From Clostridiales bacterium (GTDB lineage: Bacteria; Bacillota; Clostridia; Oscillospirales; Acutalibacteraceae), in the NCBI GenBank assembly GCA_024697575.1, contig JAILFM010000133.1, positions 1 through 33,029 on the forward strand: a DNA stretch of 33,029 nt. The letters are read 5' to 3'. Under the pieces are notes generated by a model that saw only the letters and a list, made by a program, of their open reading frames with translations, searched no databases and was not told the DNA's origin. Positions 2,536-11,463 of the stretch are shown in pieces (within the stretch, counting starts at the first letter, position 1; the number at the start of each line of letters is the position of its first letter). The position numbers and the translations under genes were made by a program.

Positions 2536-2564
2536 TTGACAAACGGAAACTGAGGGCTTATACT
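2536..2564 (+). promoter_or_regulatory. paaK operon promoter
   Basis: TTGACA (2536-2541) and TATACT (2559-2564) are spaced by 17 bp, which places the start near 2571. The transcript then has a leader of about 256 nt before paaK, holding a small Phe-rich open reading frame and an intrinsic terminator. Confidence 0.85.
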
Positions 2565-2627
2565 GACCGCATATTAAGCGCTTAAGATATTTGCAGAAAA
2601 TAAACATTGACTTGACGGAGAAATCCA

Positions 2628-2726
2628 ATGAAAAGTAAGCTTAACGTTAACAGCATTTTCGGCTTTAGCTTTAACTTCTTTTGGCGTGGTTCAAAAGAGG
2701 TTAATTTGCTATGCGAAAAAGTGTGA
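2628..2726 (+). CDS. Phe/Trp-rich leader peptide of the paaK operon
   Basis: A 32-codon frame starts with ATG at 2628, 7 nt after GGAG (2617-2620), and ends with TGA at 2724-2726. It contains the run IFGFSFNFFW, with five Phe codons and one Trp codon between 2658 and 2684. The last Phe and Trp codons sit inside the 5' arm of a 13-bp hairpin (2671-2704). This is the arrangement expected for a leader peptide that senses charged tRNA-Phe (and perhaps tRNA-Trp) by ribosome stalling. Alternatives are a chance reading frame or an unrelated small protein. The promoter upstream and terminator downstream argue against chance. Confidence 0.8.
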   Translation: MKSKLNVNSIFGFSFNFFWRGSKEVNLLCEKV

Positions 2727-2788
2727 GAGTTAAGCTGTAACAGAATTCACACAGGGTGTAGCACTTTAACCGGTGTTACACCTTTTTT
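2671..2788 (+). promoter_or_regulatory. Transcription attenuator with alternative hairpins
   Basis: Three mutually exclusive pairings are visible. Hairpin 1:2 pairs 2671-2683 with 2692-2704 (13 bp, one G-U, 8-nt loop) and covers the Phe-Phe-Trp codons. The antiterminator 2:3 pairs GGTTAA (2699-2704) with TTAACC (2766-2771) and TGCTA (2707-2711) with TAGCA (2759-2763) across a 2x2 internal loop. The terminator 3:4 pairs 2755-2764 with 2773-2782. A ribosome stalled on the Phe/Trp codons would open 1:2 and free region 2 to capture region 3, blocking the terminator. The folding was read by eye; energies were not computed. Confidence 0.75.
2755..2788 (+). terminator. Intrinsic terminator in the paaK leader
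   Basis: GGTGTA-G-CAC (2755-2764) pairs with GTG-T-TACACC (2773-2782) through nine Watson-Crick pairs and one G-U, with the 8-nt loop TTTAACCG. Six T residues follow (2783-2788), then GTTTT. It lies 38 nt upstream of the paaK start codon, so it must be bypassed for the operon to be expressed. Confidence 0.85.
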
Positions 2789-2826
2789 GTTTTCTTTGAA
2801 GTTTTTTAAAATTGAAAGGGGATATC

Positions 2827-4131
2827 ATGGAAAAGTATTATCAGCCGGAAATTGAAACCGCTTCTTATGAAGAGATAAGACGGATTCAAAACGAAAAGAT
2901 TGTCAAACAGGTTCGATATGTTTATGACAATGTGCCTTATTACCGCAATCTTATGGATAAAAAGGGGGTTAAACCCGACGATATCAAGAGTGTTGACGAT
3001 ATAAAGAAGCTTCCTTTTCTTTCAAAGGATGATTTGCGCGAAGCTTATCCATATGGCTTGCTTGGCACCGACCTTAAAAATGTGGTGCGTATTCATTCCA
3101 CTTCGGGTACAACCGGTAAGCGTGTGGTAGCGTTTTACACTCAGCATGATATTGATTTGTGGGAGGATTGCTGCGCAAGGGCAATCGTTGCAGCGGGTGG
3201 TTCTGATGAGGATGTCTGCCAGGTTTGCTACGGCTACGGCTTGTTCACCGGAGGCTCAGGACTTCACGGCGGTTCACACAAGGTTGGATGCATGACATTG
3301 CCCATGTCTTCGGGCAATACGGACAGACAGATTCAGTTCATGATGGATCTCGGCTCTACGATTCTTTGCTGTACACCATCCTATGCAGCATATATCGGCG
3401 AATCACTTGCGGAAAAGGGATATAAGCCGGAGGATAATAAACTGAAAGCCGGTATTTTCGGCGCGGAGCCGTGGACGGAAGAAATGCGTCAGGGTATTGA
3501 AAAGTCTCTCGGTATCAAGGCCTATGATATCTACGGCCTTACCGAAACATCGGGACCCGGCGTTGCGTTTGAGTGCAGTGAGCAGACGGGAATGCATATA
3601 AATGAGGATCATTTCTATGCCGAAATCATTGATCCCGAAACGGGTGAGGTTCTGCCTGAGGGCTCAAAGGGAGAGCTGGTTTTCACTTCTCTTGACAAAG
3701 AAGGTTTCCCGCTTCTTCGCTACAGAACAAAGGATATCTGCATTTTATCTCGCAAAAAATGCTCCTGCGGACGCACGCATATCAAAATGACCAAACCGCT
3801 TGGCAGAAGCGATGATATGATGATTATCCGCGGCGTGAATGTATTCCCGAGTCAGATAGAAACCGTGCTTCTCAAAGAGGGATTCCCGCCTAACTATCAG
3901 ATTGTTGTTGACCGTGTGAATAATAACGACACATTTGATATTTATGTGGAGTGCCCGCCGGAACTGTTTTCCGATAAAGTGGCAGAAATGCAGAATCACG
4001 AGAAAAATCTTAATGCGGCAATGCGGTCAATGCTCGGCATAGGTCCGAAAATTCACCTTGTCGCTCCTAAATCCATTGAACGCTCCGAAGGCAAAGCCGT
4101 CAGAGTTATTGATAAACGTAAATTACATTGA
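2827..4131 (+). CDS. paaK: Phenylacetate-CoA ligase family (arylacetate/arylalkanoate-CoA ligase)
   Basis: An adenylate-forming enzyme (ANL superfamily) that activates aryl acids such as phenylacetate or indoleacetate to CoA thioesters using ATP. The protein is 434 residues, normal for PaaK. The phosphate-binding loop HSTSGTTGK lies near residue 92, the YGLTETSGPG motif near 235, and the hinge and C-terminal domain GRSDDMMIIRGVNVFPSQIE near 327. I chose the ATG at 2827 because GAAAGGGG lies 5 nt upstream; a TTG at 2812 in the same frame has no such site. It is the first gene of a three-gene unit with an ACT-domain gene and trpB2. In amino-acid-fermenting anaerobes PaaK homologues act with aryl-pyruvate oxidoreductases, but none is in this window, so the substrate is uncertain. 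Confidence 0.88.
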   Translation: MEKYYQPEIETASYEEIRRIQNEKIVKQVRYVYDNVPYYRNLMDKKGVKPDDIKSVDDIKKLPFLSKDDLREAYPYGLLGTDLKNVVRIHSTSGTTGKRVVAFYTQHDIDLWEDCCARAIVAAGGSDEDVCQVCYGYGLFTGGSGLHGGSHKVGCMTLPMSSGNTDRQIQFMMDLGSTILCCTPSYAAYIGESLAEKGYKPEDNKLKAGIFGAEPWTEEMRQGIEKSLGIKAYDIYGLTETSGPGVAFECSEQTGMHINEDHFYAEIIDPETGEVLPEGSKGELVFTSLDKEGFPLLRYRTKDICILSRKKCSCGRTHIKMTKPLGRSDDMMIIRGVNVFPSQIETVLLKEGFPPNYQIVVDRVNNNDTFDIYVECPPELFSDKVAEMQNHEKNLNAAMRSMLGIGPKIHLVAPKSIERSEGKAVRVIDKRKLH

Positions 4132-4145
4132 GGAGGGGTTAAAAC

Positions 4146-4580
4146 ATGGCTGTTACGCAATTATCAGTTTTTCTGGAAAACAGACCCGGCATGCTTGATA
4201 AAACCGTCGCCGCAATTACAGCTGCCGGCATTAATATCCGTGCTCTCAGTTTAGCTGACACCAAGGATTTCGGAATACTGAGAATGATAGTATCGGATAT
4301 TGAAAAAACCAAAGCTGCCGTAAGCGGTGACACGGTAATTAAAGAAACCCATGTTATTGCCATCGGTATGGATGACAAGTCGGGAGCGTTGAACAACATT
4401 CTTCGCATATTGAGTGCTGACGGTATTAATATTGAATATGTTTATGCCTTTACCGGTGCGGTTCGCGGCAAAGCATATGTTGTTCTGAGAGTTGATGACG
4501 TCGGACATGCGGAAAAAACGCTTTCTGCAAACGGCATAGAAACCCTAAGCGATTGTGATATAAAAGAATTTCTTGAATAG
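4146..4580 (+). CDS. Tandem ACT-domain protein
   Basis: A 144-residue protein made of two ACT folds and nothing else. The first spans about residues 1-68 (QLSVFLENRPGMLDKTVAAI) and the second about 70-140 (VIAIGMDDKSGALNNILRIL). The paired PGML and SGAL turns are the usual ligand-binding positions for amino acids at the dimer interface. AGGAGGGG (4131-4138) overlaps the paaK stop codon and lies 7 nt from the ATG, so translation is probably coupled. Such stand-alone ACT proteins commonly follow paaK in Clostridia. An aromatic amino acid is a reasonable ligand given the Phe-rich leader upstream, but that is inference. There is no catalytic domain, so it is likely an allosteric partner or sensor. 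Confidence 0.88.
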   Translation: MAVTQLSVFLENRPGMLDKTVAAITAAGINIRALSLADTKDFGILRMIVSDIEKTKAAVSGDTVIKETHVIAIGMDDKSGALNNILRILSADGINIEYVYAFTGAVRGKAYVVLRVDDVGHAEKTLSANGIETLSDCDIKEFLE

Positions 4581-4593
4581 GAGGAAAACAGCA

Positions 4594-5970
4594 ATGTCAG
4601 AAGAAAGAAAAATCCCGTACAAAATTTATCTTGAAGAAGATGAGATGCCGAAAGCATGGTACAATGTCAGGTCTGCTATGAAAAACAAGCCGGCGCCTCT
4701 TCTTAACCCCGCCACACATCAGCCGATGACAGCGGAGGAGCTCGGCGGAGTTTTCTGCTCGGATTTGGTTGCTCAGGAGCTGGATAACGACAGCGCTTTT
4801 ATCGAAATACCTCAGGAGATAAGAGAGTTCTATAAGATGTATCGCCCTTCACCGCTTGTCAGGGCATATTATCTTGAGGAAAAACTCGGAACCCCGGCGG
4901 AGATTTACTACAAATTTGAGGGCAACAACACAAGCGGAAGTCACAAACTCAACTCCGCAATAGCCCAGGCATATTATGCCAAAAAACAGGGTCTTAAGGG
5001 CGTTACTACCGAGACGGGCGCCGGTCAGTGGGGAACCGCGCTTTCAATGGCTTGTTCATATTTCGGACTTGACTGTAAAGTATATATGGTTAAGGTGTCT
5101 TATGAGCAAAAACCGTTCAGACGCGAAGTTATGAGGGTTTACGGAGCGAGTGTAACGCCGTCACCTTCAATGAGCACTCAGGTGGGTAAAAAAATCAATG
5201 CCGAGCATCCCGGCACAACGGGTTCCCTCGGCTGCGCTATCAGCGAAGCGGTTGAGGATGCCGTTACCCATGAAGGCTACAGGTATGTGCTCGGCTCCGT
5301 TCTCAACCAGGTTTTGCTTCATCAATCAGTAATCGGACTTGAAACAAAGATTGCACTTGACAAATACGGTATTAAACCCGATATGATTATCGGTTGCGCG
5401 GGCGGCGGCTCAAATCTCGGCGGATTGATCTCTCCGTTTATGGGTGAAAAGCTTCGCGGAGAAGCCGATTATGATATTATTGCCGTTGAGCCTGCGTCCT
5501 GCCCAAGCTTCACAAGGGGTAAGTATGCATATGACTTCTGTGATACGGGTATGGTGTGTCCTCTTGCGAAGATGTACACTCTCGGCGCAGATTTTATTCC
5601 CTCTGCCAACCACGCCGGCGGCCTGAGATACCACGGGATGAGCCCTGTTCTTTCACAGCTTTATGATGACGGACTGATGAGGGCGGTTTCGGTTGAACAG
5701 ACTAAAGTCTTTGAGGCTGCCGAGACATTTGCGAGAGTTGAAGGTATTCTTCCCGCACCGGAGAGCTCACACGCTATTCGCGTAGCGATTGACGAAGCGC
5801 TGAAATGCAAAGAAACCGGAGAAAAGAAAACAATTGTTTTCGGTCTTACCGGAACCGGCTATTTTGATTTGGTTGCATATGAGAAATTCCATAACGGCCA
5901 GATGAGCGATTATATTCCGACCGATGAGGAACTTGCACAGTACGCTTCAAGGCTTCCGAAAGTTGACTGA
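4594..5970 (+). CDS. trpB2: TrpB2-type tryptophan synthase beta-like PLP enzyme
   Basis: A fold-type II PLP enzyme related to the TrpB2 branch of tryptophan synthase beta subunits, which condense indole with serine (or phosphoserine) without a TrpA partner. The protein is 458 residues, longer than TrpB1 (about 400) and typical of TrpB2. The PLP lysine is in NTSGSHKLNSA, the catalytic glutamate region is TETGAGQWGTALS, and the phosphate loop is GCAGGGSNLGG. The ATG at 4594 is preferred because AGGAGG (4579-4584) lies 9 nt upstream and overlaps the previous stop; the in-frame codon at 4573 is inside the ACT gene. No trpA or other trp genes are nearby. The role may be indole salvage or another beta-substitution reaction. 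Confidence 0.87.
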   Translation: MSEERKIPYKIYLEEDEMPKAWYNVRSAMKNKPAPLLNPATHQPMTAEELGGVFCSDLVAQELDNDSAFIEIPQEIREFYKMYRPSPLVRAYYLEEKLGTPAEIYYKFEGNNTSGSHKLNSAIAQAYYAKKQGLKGVTTETGAGQWGTALSMACSYFGLDCKVYMVKVSYEQKPFRREVMRVYGASVTPSPSMSTQVGKKINAEHPGTTGSLGCAISEAVEDAVTHEGYRYVLGSVLNQVLLHQSVIGLETKIALDKYGIKPDMIIGCAGGGSNLGGLISPFMGEKLRGEADYDIIAVEPASCPSFTRGKYAYDFCDTGMVCPLAKMYTLGADFIPSANHAGGLRYHGMSPVLSQLYDDGLMRAVSVEQTKVFEAAETFARVEGILPAPESSHAIRVAIDEALKCKETGEKKTIVFGLTGTGYFDLVAYEKFHNGQMSDYIPTDEELAQYASRLPKVD

Positions 5971-6064: not shown

Positions 6065-7246
6065 TTATCCGAGGAGTTTCAGAAGCCTTTTTGCCGCTTC
6101 GTTTGTGTCTGCCGGTTTGCCGAAGGTTGAAAAGCGGAAAAAGTTTTTGCCGCATGTGCCAAAGCCTTCGCCGGGTGTGCCGACGACCTGTATCTCATTC
6201 AGCAACAAGTCAAAAAACTGCCAGCTGTCCATACCATTCGGACATTCCAGCCATACATAAGGCGCATTCTTTCCGCCGGTATACCATATTCCTGCTTTAT
6301 CAAGCGCTTTCATTATTGTTTTTGCGTTTTGCTTGTAAATTGAAAGCGTGTTATGAATCTGTTTCTGACCTTCATCGGTAAAAACCGCCGCAGCTCCTCT
6401 TTGCAGAATGTATGAAATGCCGTTTGTTTTTGTAGTGCGGTTGCGCACCCACATTGAGTTGAGATTCATTTCACCGCGCACAATTGTTTTCGGAACAATT
6501 GTGTAACCGCATCTTGTTCCCGTAAAGCCTGCCGTTTTTGAAAGAGAACAGATTTCAATTGCACAGGTTTTCGTACCGGGTATCTCATAAATACTGTGAG
6601 GAATGTCTTCCTCTTCTATGAATGCTTCATATGCTGCGTCAAAAAGTATTATTGCCTGAATGTTATTTGCGTATTCCACCCATTTTTTCAGTTTTTCACG
6701 GTTGAACACCGCGCCTGTCGGGTTATTAGGTGAACAGATATATATTATATCTATGCTTCTGTTTTCGGGAGGTTCGGGTAAAAAACCGTTTTCTCTTCCG
6801 GAGGGAAGGTGAACTATTGTATTGCCTGCCATAATATTTGCGTCAACATATGCCGGATATGCGGGTTCGGGGATAAGAACTGTTTTACCGCGGCCGAAAA
6901 GATCAAGAATATCGCCGAGCTCGTCACTTGCTCCGCTGGAAACAAAAACTTCATCCGTGTCAAGTTCTATACCGCGCTTTGAATAGTATCCGGCTATGGT
7001 TTCTCTGAGAAAAGGCGCACCGCATTCGGGCATATATCCGTGAAATGTTTCGATGTGTGCCTGATCTTCAACCGCATTTTTAAGTTCTTCAATAACCGCG
7101 GGGCAAAGCGGCTGTGAAACATCGCCTATACCCATACGCAACAGTTGCTTACCCGGATTGTTTTCAAGATATGCCGCGGTTTTTTGAGCTATGTTATAAA
7201 AAAGATAAGAGTCTTTAAGATTGCCGTAATTTGTATTCGGTATCAC
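6065..7246 (-). CDS. dapL: LL-diaminopimelate aminotransferase
   Basis: A class I/II PLP aminotransferase that converts tetrahydrodipicolinate directly to LL-diaminopimelate with glutamate as donor, bypassing the acyl-intermediate steps of lysine and peptidoglycan synthesis. Family features are the N-terminal NYGNLKDSYLF, RMGIGDVSQPL, the CSPNNPTGAVF loop, and the PLP lysine in CSLSKTAGFTGTRCGY. I chose the GTG at 7246-7244, which overlaps the dapF stop (GTGA) and follows GAGGTGG by 5 nt. This gives 393 residues and an N terminus aligned with known DapL proteins. An upstream ATG at 7261 has no Shine-Dalgarno. It is the last gene of the asnB-pyrG-dapF-dapL run, and pairing with dapF supports the assignment because DapF uses the DapL product. 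Confidence 0.92.
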   Translation of the reverse strand: MIPNTNYGNLKDSYLFYNIAQKTAAYLENNPGKQLLRMGIGDVSQPLCPAVIEELKNAVEDQAHIETFHGYMPECGAPFLRETIAGYYSKRGIELDTDEVFVSSGASDELGDILDLFGRGKTVLIPEPAYPAYVDANIMAGNTIVHLPSGRENGFLPEPPENRSIDIIYICSPNNPTGAVFNREKLKKWVEYANNIQAIILFDAAYEAFIEEEDIPHSIYEIPGTKTCAIEICSLSKTAGFTGTRCGYTIVPKTIVRGEMNLNSMWVRNRTTKTNGISYILQRGAAAVFTDEGQKQIHNTLSIYKQNAKTIMKALDKAGIWYTGGKNAPYVWLECPNGMDSWQFFDLLLNEIQVVGTPGEGFGTCGKNFFRFSTFGKPADTNEAAKRLLKLLG

Positions 7247-11343: not shown

Positions 11344-11426
11344 GTGGGTTTTTCCTGTTTTCAGACTGTTTAACATTTTTAACAACATTTAATTTCAAAA
11401 GTCAATATTTTTTGTGCAAGTGTGAA

Positions 11427-11445
11427 ATTCGGATTAAATCCGAAT
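11427..11445. promoter_or_regulatory. Perfect 19-nt palindrome in the asnB/glnA divergent region
   Basis: ATTCGGATT and AATCCGAAT flank a single central A (arms 9 bp, no mismatch). It lies 18 bp upstream of the glnA -35 box and about 84 bp upstream of the asnB -35 box. No T-run follows on either strand, so a terminator is unlikely. A DNA operator for an unknown regulator fits better. It does not match the GlnR/TnrA half-site pattern. Confidence 0.5.
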
Positions 11446-11463
11446 GAAAAAGCAAGAAAACTG

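Follow-up and report, generated by a model that had tools for sequence, protein, structure and literature searches.

A predicted Phe-codon leader-peptide attenuator upstream of paaK-ACT-trpB2 in a clostridial bacterium, and related leaders before other aromatic amino acid genes

The paaK-ACT-trpB2 genes of a Clostridiales bacterium are very probably under the control of a ribosome-mediated transcription attenuator whose signal is charged tRNA-Phe, perhaps with charged tRNA-Trp as well. The leader was found in a stretch of 33,029 nucleotides (the window; G000:C179) from a 2.16-Mb draft genome of 179 contigs, between paaK and a cysteine-synthase-like gene that was assigned by reading the translation of its open reading frame (ORF). 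The decisive evidence that the predicted attenuator is real is its conservation in relatives.

Organization of the leader

The leader consists of an ORF with a ribosome-binding site and cognate codons, followed by a terminator that lies between the leader and the first gene (Table 1). A scan of 4.5 kb gave 14 promoter-like sites where 6.7 were expected. The leader promoter scored highest among them, and its position places the inferred transcription start near 2571. A preliminary description of this DNA, which gave the attenuator as 2571-2826, had listed a promoter with 17-bp spacing, a 32-codon peptide with a good ribosome site, a 13-bp hairpin at 2671-2704, an antiterminator formed by 2699-2711 with 2759-2771, and a terminator at 2755-2788. 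The promoter was confirmed, just outside that span, as were the peptide with its ribosome site and the antiterminator, which has 11 of 13 pairs and two internal mismatches. The hairpin stands at the position described but has 14 pairs when G-U is counted. The terminator is likewise present, with 13 pairs and a T-rich tail, but its stem runs from 2753 to 2784.

Table 1. Features of the leader and the downstream operon (window coordinates)
Feature	Position	Strand	Remarks
Sigma-70-type promoter, TTGACA-17 nt-TATACT	2536-2564	+	11 of 12 consensus matches
Ribosome-binding site, GGAG	2617-2620	+	7 nt 5' of leader ATG at 2628; read from sequence
Leader-peptide ORF, MKSKLNVNSIFGFSFNFFWRGSKEVNLLCEKV	2628-2726	+	32 codons plus stop; stop TGA at 2724-2726
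Regulatory codons, F11 G F S F N F F W19	2658-2684	+	5 Phe, 1 Trp
Protective (1:2) hairpin	2671-2704	+	14 pairs including G-U; spans last Phe and Trp codons
Antiterminator 5' arm, GGTTAATTTGCTA	2699-2711	+	Six bases overlap 3' arm of 1:2 hairpin
Antiterminator 3' arm, TAGCACTTTAACC	2759-2771	+	Built from terminator 5' arm and loop
Intrinsic terminator stem-loop	2753-2784	+	13 pairs, loop of 6; T-rich tail 3' of stem
paaK, phenylacetate-CoA ligase-like	2827-4131	+	434 aa; TIGR02155, 518.5 bits, below cut-off of 646.3
ACT-domain-pair protein	4146-4580	+	144 aa; PF19571 (ACT_8)
trpB2, TrpB-like PLP enzyme	4594-5970	+	458 aa; NF009057 and TIGR01415 above cut-off

We infer that the leader peptide is translated, that ribosomes stall on it, that antitermination is kinetic, and that the switch responds to Phe or Trp. 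With ample Phe, the first ribosome would run on to the stop codon and mask some of the antiterminator 5' arm; the 1:2 hairpin could then re-form, and the terminator would end transcription. When Phe is short, the ribosome would stall at the Phe-Phe-Trp codons, opening the 1:2 hairpin and freeing 2699-2711, which would pair with 2759-2771 once the latter is transcribed. The terminator would then come too late, and paaK-ACT-trpB2 would be transcribed.

The Phe/Trp-rich ORF by itself is suggestive only, because a similar ORF (15 to 60 codons, a ribosome site, and at least six Phe or Trp codons in 12 codons) appeared in 132 of 20,000 Markov shuffles of 2571-2826 when no hairpin was demanded. The terminator scan alone was not significant either (7 found versus 5.0 expected, standard deviation 2.0). 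Both results would agree with a Phe-rich ORF and two hairpins having come together by coincidence. Compared with 200 dinucleotide shuffles, the fold of 2571-2795 is more stable than their mean by 17 kcal/mol (z = -4.26). Coincidence is already contradicted by the relatives, in which covariation and recurrence before aromatic genes make it hardly credible.

Relatives with the same leader before paaK

Relatives of paaK were collected from the family (105 of 150 genomes matched at 1e-80), from the genus (38 of 45 genomes matched at 1e-150), and from a named collection in which 80 loci were kept among at least 597 matches. Six of the 137 paaK loci scanned, which overlap between searches (L014 is L102) and are not counts of independent genomes, carry a Phe-rich leader of the window type within 450 bases 5' of paaK: L002 (the window), L003, L032, L059, L060, and L061. 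Their PaaK proteins are at least 87% identical. Leaders homologous to the window ORF are present in L003, L032, and L059 to L062. Two further loci, L019 and L022, had an equal aromatic score but no resemblance to the window leader and were set aside.

The preliminary description had proposed looking for conserved Phe codons and compensatory changes upstream of related paaK-ACT operons, and Phe runs, terminators, and compensatory changes do recur there and also before other aromatic genes. In the six aligned paaK leaders the terminator and the antiterminator are both kept, with compensatory changes that include some in the terminator stem. The stretch GGTTAATTTGC is common to the six, except that L060 has GGTTGA there, and its loop carries the corresponding change. 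In L003 and L032 the stop codon of the leader falls within this stretch, and the other four leaders read Val-Asn/Asp-Leu-Leu-Cys there. Because the same stretch holds a stop in two leaders and sense codons in four, its conservation is at the RNA level.

This pattern bears on the alternative that the ORF product is a small peptide with a function of its own and the hairpin an ordinary constitutive terminator. The peptide is indeed similar among close relatives, but across the related leaders it is not kept outside the aromatic run (judged by eye), the conserved 3' stretch is not consistently coding, and the terminator loop covaries with the leader. We therefore consider a functional peptide very improbable.

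The exact leader core was found in 3 of the 45 genus genomes. A search of these 45 genomes for GGTTAATTTGCTAT with one mismatch returned 14 sites in 11 genomes, versus 18 for the reversed control. The exact motif occurs only in G000 (the genome of the window), G015, and G163, and a genus-wide element was therefore rejected.

A wider family of 36 leaders

Covariance models with the terminator as their sole structure were built from 6 members (R1), 14 members (R2), and 32 members (R3). Matches were accepted by hand if an ATG-initiated ORF with an aromatic run lay directly 5' of the terminator, and the downstream genes were checked afterwards. Under these strict filters the leader is uncommon. 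It was accepted in 7 of 398 genomes of the family (18 matched by R1 at E 0.01), in 20 of 394 genomes of the order (28 matched by R2), and in 5 of 398 genomes of the phylum (6 matched by R3 at E 0.001), with the window included each time and, at the order level, with L158, which like the window is an R2 training member. Four more loci (L062, L116, L073, and L076) were accepted when R1 was applied to 86 sources.

Matches without an aromatic leader were rejected: 11 of the 18 for R1 (L159 to L162 and L164 to L170), 8 of the 28 for R2 (L181, L184, L186, L189 to L192, and L196), and 1 of the 6 for R3 (L261). In tblastn searches with PaaK, ACT, TrpB2, AroF, TyrA, and PheA as queries, none of the six genes was found in 16 of these 20 rejected loci or in the whole of L265, nor was any of them found downstream of L167, L170, L192, L196, or six weak partial R3 matches. 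Three weak R1 matches (E 1.5 to 4.2) were left out. A second R3 match in the genome of the window (G000:C69, E 0.518) is partial and without a leader, and it was rejected as a second copy.

In total, 36 related leaders including the window were obtained. Seven are from the named collection (L059 to L062, L073, L076, and L116), and three of the others are from outside the order (L257, L258, and L259). An aromatic codon run is present in the 35 leaders besides the window, its presence having been the acceptance criterion. The first gene after the leader encodes AroF/DAHP synthase in 18 cases, PaaK in 9, TrpB2 in 6, an SSF symporter followed by paaK in 2, and an MFS transporter in 1. Among the 26 order-level R2 matches beyond the training members, 17 adjoin AroF or TrpB2, one (L194) adjoins a transporter, and 8 are the rejected matches. 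Thus, R2 matches fall before aromatic genes although the models contain no gene information.

The symporter genes (PF00474, sodium:solute symporter) lie between the leader and paaK-ACT at L116:1230-2783 and L076:3351-4907; their products are candidate arylacetate importers under the same Phe/Tyr leader. At L194 (L232:3-863, minus strand) the MFS transporter (PF07690) is directly behind a leader that has Phe codons and no Tyr or Trp codons. This protein is possibly a Phe or aryl-acid transporter.

Covariation of the alternative helices

Both the terminator helix and the antiterminator helix covary in the aligned sequences. For the terminator in 14 members, 98.1% of cells are paired and both partners changed in 8 of 11 pairs, values reached on every measure by 0 of 500 shuffles. 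In 32 members, 97.1% of cells are paired (0/500 shuffles), and all 11 pairs changed on both sides (6/500) in 108 cells (0/500). Both alignments were fitted to the terminator structure and hence lean towards the terminator.

The antiterminator is part of none of the covariance models. In 14 members, 91.3% of its cells are paired (0/500 shuffles), versus 16.0 to 46.8% when the arms are slid, and changes in both partners affect 4 of 12 pairs (a count of 4 was attained in 15 of 500 shuffles) and 9 cells (0/500). Predicted binding of the antiterminator arms was also stronger within members than between them: -15.5 kcal/mol for own arms versus -11.2 kcal/mol for swapped arms in 14 members, -16.9 versus -11.1 kcal/mol in 32 members, and -15.5 versus -11.2 in the 18 order-level members alone (0 of 20,000 permutations in each case). 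Because related members have the same partner, the own one does not stand alone at the top of the 32 in most cases. The weak duplexes are those of L178 (-9.2 kcal/mol), L193 (-9.5 kcal/mol), and L179 (-11.0 kcal/mol), in which the own partner ranks 19th, 10th, and 13th of 32. The members are related, and the shuffle counts here and the Fisher counts below therefore overstate independence.

Predicted folding of the switch

The leader was folded with the bases beneath a modelled ribosome kept unpaired. With the ribosome at Phe17 or Trp19 of the window leader and the RNA 3' end at 2771, the minimum-energy fold contains 11 of the 13 antiterminator pairs. When the ribosome is placed on the stop codon, or left out, there are 0 antiterminator pairs and the 1:2 hairpin has 14 of 14 pairs; when the terminator 3' arm is added, the terminator forms with 13 of 13 pairs. 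The antiterminator of the window is thus predicted to exclude the terminator in a manner that depends on the position of the ribosome. The preliminary description had suggested this comparison, and the folds predicted with RNA polymerase just past the loop agree with it. A correction is required for the whole window transcript, in which the terminator is favored at equilibrium even with a stalled ribosome. If the predictions are right, the switch must therefore act during transcription, by kinetic antitermination. Textbook attenuators likewise act during transcription.

Across the 32 members the folds were mixed. At least 7 antiterminator pairs were predicted in a co-transcriptional fold for 26 members when the ribosome was stalled, for 12 when it stood on the stop codon, and for 21 when it was absent. 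In the same test the window has 14 antiterminator pairs with a stalled ribosome and 0 in either of the other states. The members without the antiterminator under a stalled ribosome are L003, L073, L116, L163, L179, and L187, and L003, with 0 pairs, is among the closest relatives of the window. Single-sequence folding predictions thus back the switch clearly in the window and only in part in the family.

Leader codons and operon content

The codons of the leaders largely match the product of the controlled operon, with exceptions. Trp codons are present in all 7 leaders with trpB2 downstream and in 6 of the other 29 (Fisher P = 0.0002); the latter group includes leaders for which little downstream sequence was available (e.g., L157, L193, and L194). 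Three or more Tyr codons are present in 13 of 13 leaders with tyrA versus 5 of 16 without (P = 0.0001), a comparison that omits 7 leaders with less than 4 kb downstream and no tyrA seen, among them L174 and L178, which have short downstream sequence and 3 and 4 Tyr codons. Where pheA directly follows aroF (L158 and L260), the leaders are Phe rich and have 0 and 1 Tyr codons.

The exceptions are of two kinds. Trp codons are found without trpB2 detected downstream in L003, L032, L059, L156, L157 (only 556 bases downstream), and L188 (whose Trp codon comes at the very end of the ORF, beyond the run). Three or more Tyr codons occur with no tyrA detected in L116, L076, L171, L172, and L187, the last with pheA 3.8 kb downstream. 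At L116 and L076, where paaK is behind the symporter, the Tyr-rich leader could fit 4-hydroxyphenylacetate.

All nine leaders directly before paaK have at least 5 Phe codons, and Trp is missing from three of them (L060, L061, and L062). Of the Phe/Trp signal originally proposed, the Phe part thus held for every paaK leader and the Trp part for six of the nine.

Other arrangements upstream of paaK

A T-box just upstream of paaK reached the Rfam gathering score in 4 of 20 loci (L003 to L022). The motif GGTGG(T/C)AC lies within 450 bases of paaK in 21 of 137 loci, one of them in the same genus as the window (L033, G174), and in 20 of these 21 loci GAA-TTC lies 121 to 132 bases 5' of the motif. 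By T-box anatomy, we take the TTC after GAA to be at the position where the specifier is expected, and the position of this triplet suggests that the T-boxes before paaK in relatives have a Phe-like specifier. Full-length iorA ends 616 to 664 bases before paaK in 8 of the 19 genus genomes searched, and the ORF ends upstream of paaK read as iorB-like in many loci. Two unrelated Phe-sensing devices, as well as iorAB operons, therefore appear to serve paaK in relatives.

Homologous leaders lacking the Phe run or the terminator had been named in the preliminary description as evidence that would count against attenuation. Most homologous operons do lack the leader, and some paaK genes have a T-box and others iorA upstream. 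We read this absence as replacement by other arrangements, not as refutation.

The presence of T-boxes before the paaK genes of relatives raises the alternative that the window operon is under a T-box, or under some other leader that binds tRNA or a ligand, and that the short ORF is incidental. However, the window leader matches no Rfam family, T-box RF00230 included, at E up to 1, and a scan of 27 of the 36 leaders (the window at E up to 1, the rest at the gathering score) gave no match in a leader. In addition, all 36 leaders have an aromatic-codon ORF, which was the basis of acceptance, and the codons follow the operon. We give control by such a binding leader only a slight chance.

Attenuation could also be real but respond to Trp, or to translation stress in general, instead of Phe. 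A Trp signal would agree with the Trp codon of the window stall site, with trpB2 in the operon, and with the Trp codons in the leaders of all trpB2 operons. Against it, three of the nine paaK leaders do without Trp while all are rich in Phe, and the specifier-like triplet in the T-box loci of relatives is one for Phe. A signal other than Phe is therefore unlikely, and we favor Phe as the amino acid sensed by the window attenuator.

Several other elements were encountered. T-box matches elsewhere in the genome of the window are at G000:C96:1834-2046 and, 2.6 kb apart, at G000:C121:3939-4179 and 6590-6832, the last below the gathering score. In G145, a relative in the genus, a T-box (L010:3340-3559) is downstream of a paaK lacking the leader. 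An azaaromatic (yjdF) match, a ZTP match, and two TPP riboswitch matches lie near paaK loci (L116:6035-6158, L076:6911-6991, and L016:733-993, minus strand). No leader-plus-terminator arrangement was recognized upstream of iorA in the genome of the window (L207, 418 bases, largely taken up by the end of a different gene) or in G163 (L208 and L209). In L208 a Phe-rich frame lies inside the T-run that follows a terminator-like hairpin.

Function of the operon

Rumen bacteria can obtain aromatic amino acids from arylacetates through reductive carboxylation. We infer that paaK-ACT-trpB2, together with indolepyruvate oxidoreductase encoded at another locus, serves aromatic amino acid supply from arylacetates, not degradation, and a Phe-starvation switch fits the direction of synthesis for the paaK operon. 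A full-length indolepyruvate oxidoreductase alpha gene is present elsewhere in the genome of the window (G000:C147). DAHP synthase of the P0002 type was not found at 1e-80 in G000, G015, or G163, the three genus genomes that carry this leader before paaK. All of them encode chorismate synthase, however, and the idea that the host lacks aromatic biosynthesis was therefore dropped. Elsewhere in the window, a Gut-1 RNA match below threshold (11386-11455; 27.2 bits, gathering score 50, E 0.21) is flanked by ORFs that read as asparagine-synthase-like and glutamine-synthetase-like.

Comparison with known systems

The trp, pheA, and pheST leaders of Proteobacteria encode a peptide with cognate codons, followed by a 1:2 hairpin and an antiterminator that uses the terminator 5' arm. 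The window leader has the same peptide-hairpin-antiterminator plan. Its family differs in having no Rfam match (27 leaders scanned), in the genes controlled, and in the phylum of the host. The Phe-type T-boxes before paaK in relatives share with the window leader the gene and the probable amino acid signal, but a T-box binds tRNA directly, and no leader peptide of the window family was seen at the T-box loci.

The statement in the preliminary description that ribosome-mediated attenuation is unusual in Firmicutes proved too strong, because several such leaders have been published. Amino acid leader-peptide attenuators have experimental support in Listeria (Rli60; PMC5864092) and in Staphylococcus aureus (ilv-leu; PMC5794164). 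Both are Firmicutes leader-peptide attenuators like the window leader, but with branched-chain codons and operons. His leader peptides replace T-boxes in some Firmicutes lineages (PMC2965389, PMC9413887); these have His codons and precede hisS/hisZ and his operons, unlike the window family. A similar motif is uORFC-13-1, predicted in Acholeplasma as a uORF with a Phe codon that precedes aroF; an intrinsic terminator adjoins it, and attenuation was proposed (PMC8632094). It comprises 24 sequences, only from Acholeplasma and environmental sources, with at least one Phe codon (PMC8632094). Compared by description only, uORFC-13-1 resembles the window family in having a short Phe-codon ORF before a DAHP synthase gene with a terminator next to the ORF, whereas the window family occurs in other lineages, has aromatic runs, and also precedes paaK, trpB2, and transporter genes. 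A literature search covering mainly the main texts of openly available papers returned no report of the window leader family or of leader control of paaK. Thus, the attenuation mechanism is known, and the leader family and its targets look new.

Implications

We favor, with moderate confidence, the view that these leaders form an undescribed aromatic regulon of leader-peptide attenuators in clostridial gut bacteria, in which one RNA architecture has had its codons retuned for each operon: Phe for aroF-pheA and paaK-ACT, Phe and Tyr for aroF-tyrA, and Trp added where trpB2 is present. Such a regulon would stand in for the Phe T-boxes of relatives and would mark paaK-ACT as an arylacetate supply route rather than a degradation route.

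The predicted attenuator offers a way to read from sequence which amino acid bears on genes whose direction would otherwise be hard to tell. T-box and leader-peptide control are found before orthologous genes within one family and even within one genus, and leader codons that change with the operon offer a natural series for the study of attenuator retuning. For the organisms themselves, the placing of a Phe-starvation switch in front of paaK points to synthesis of Phe and Trp, not breakdown of phenylacetate, as the role of phenylacetate-CoA ligase in gut and rumen clostridia.
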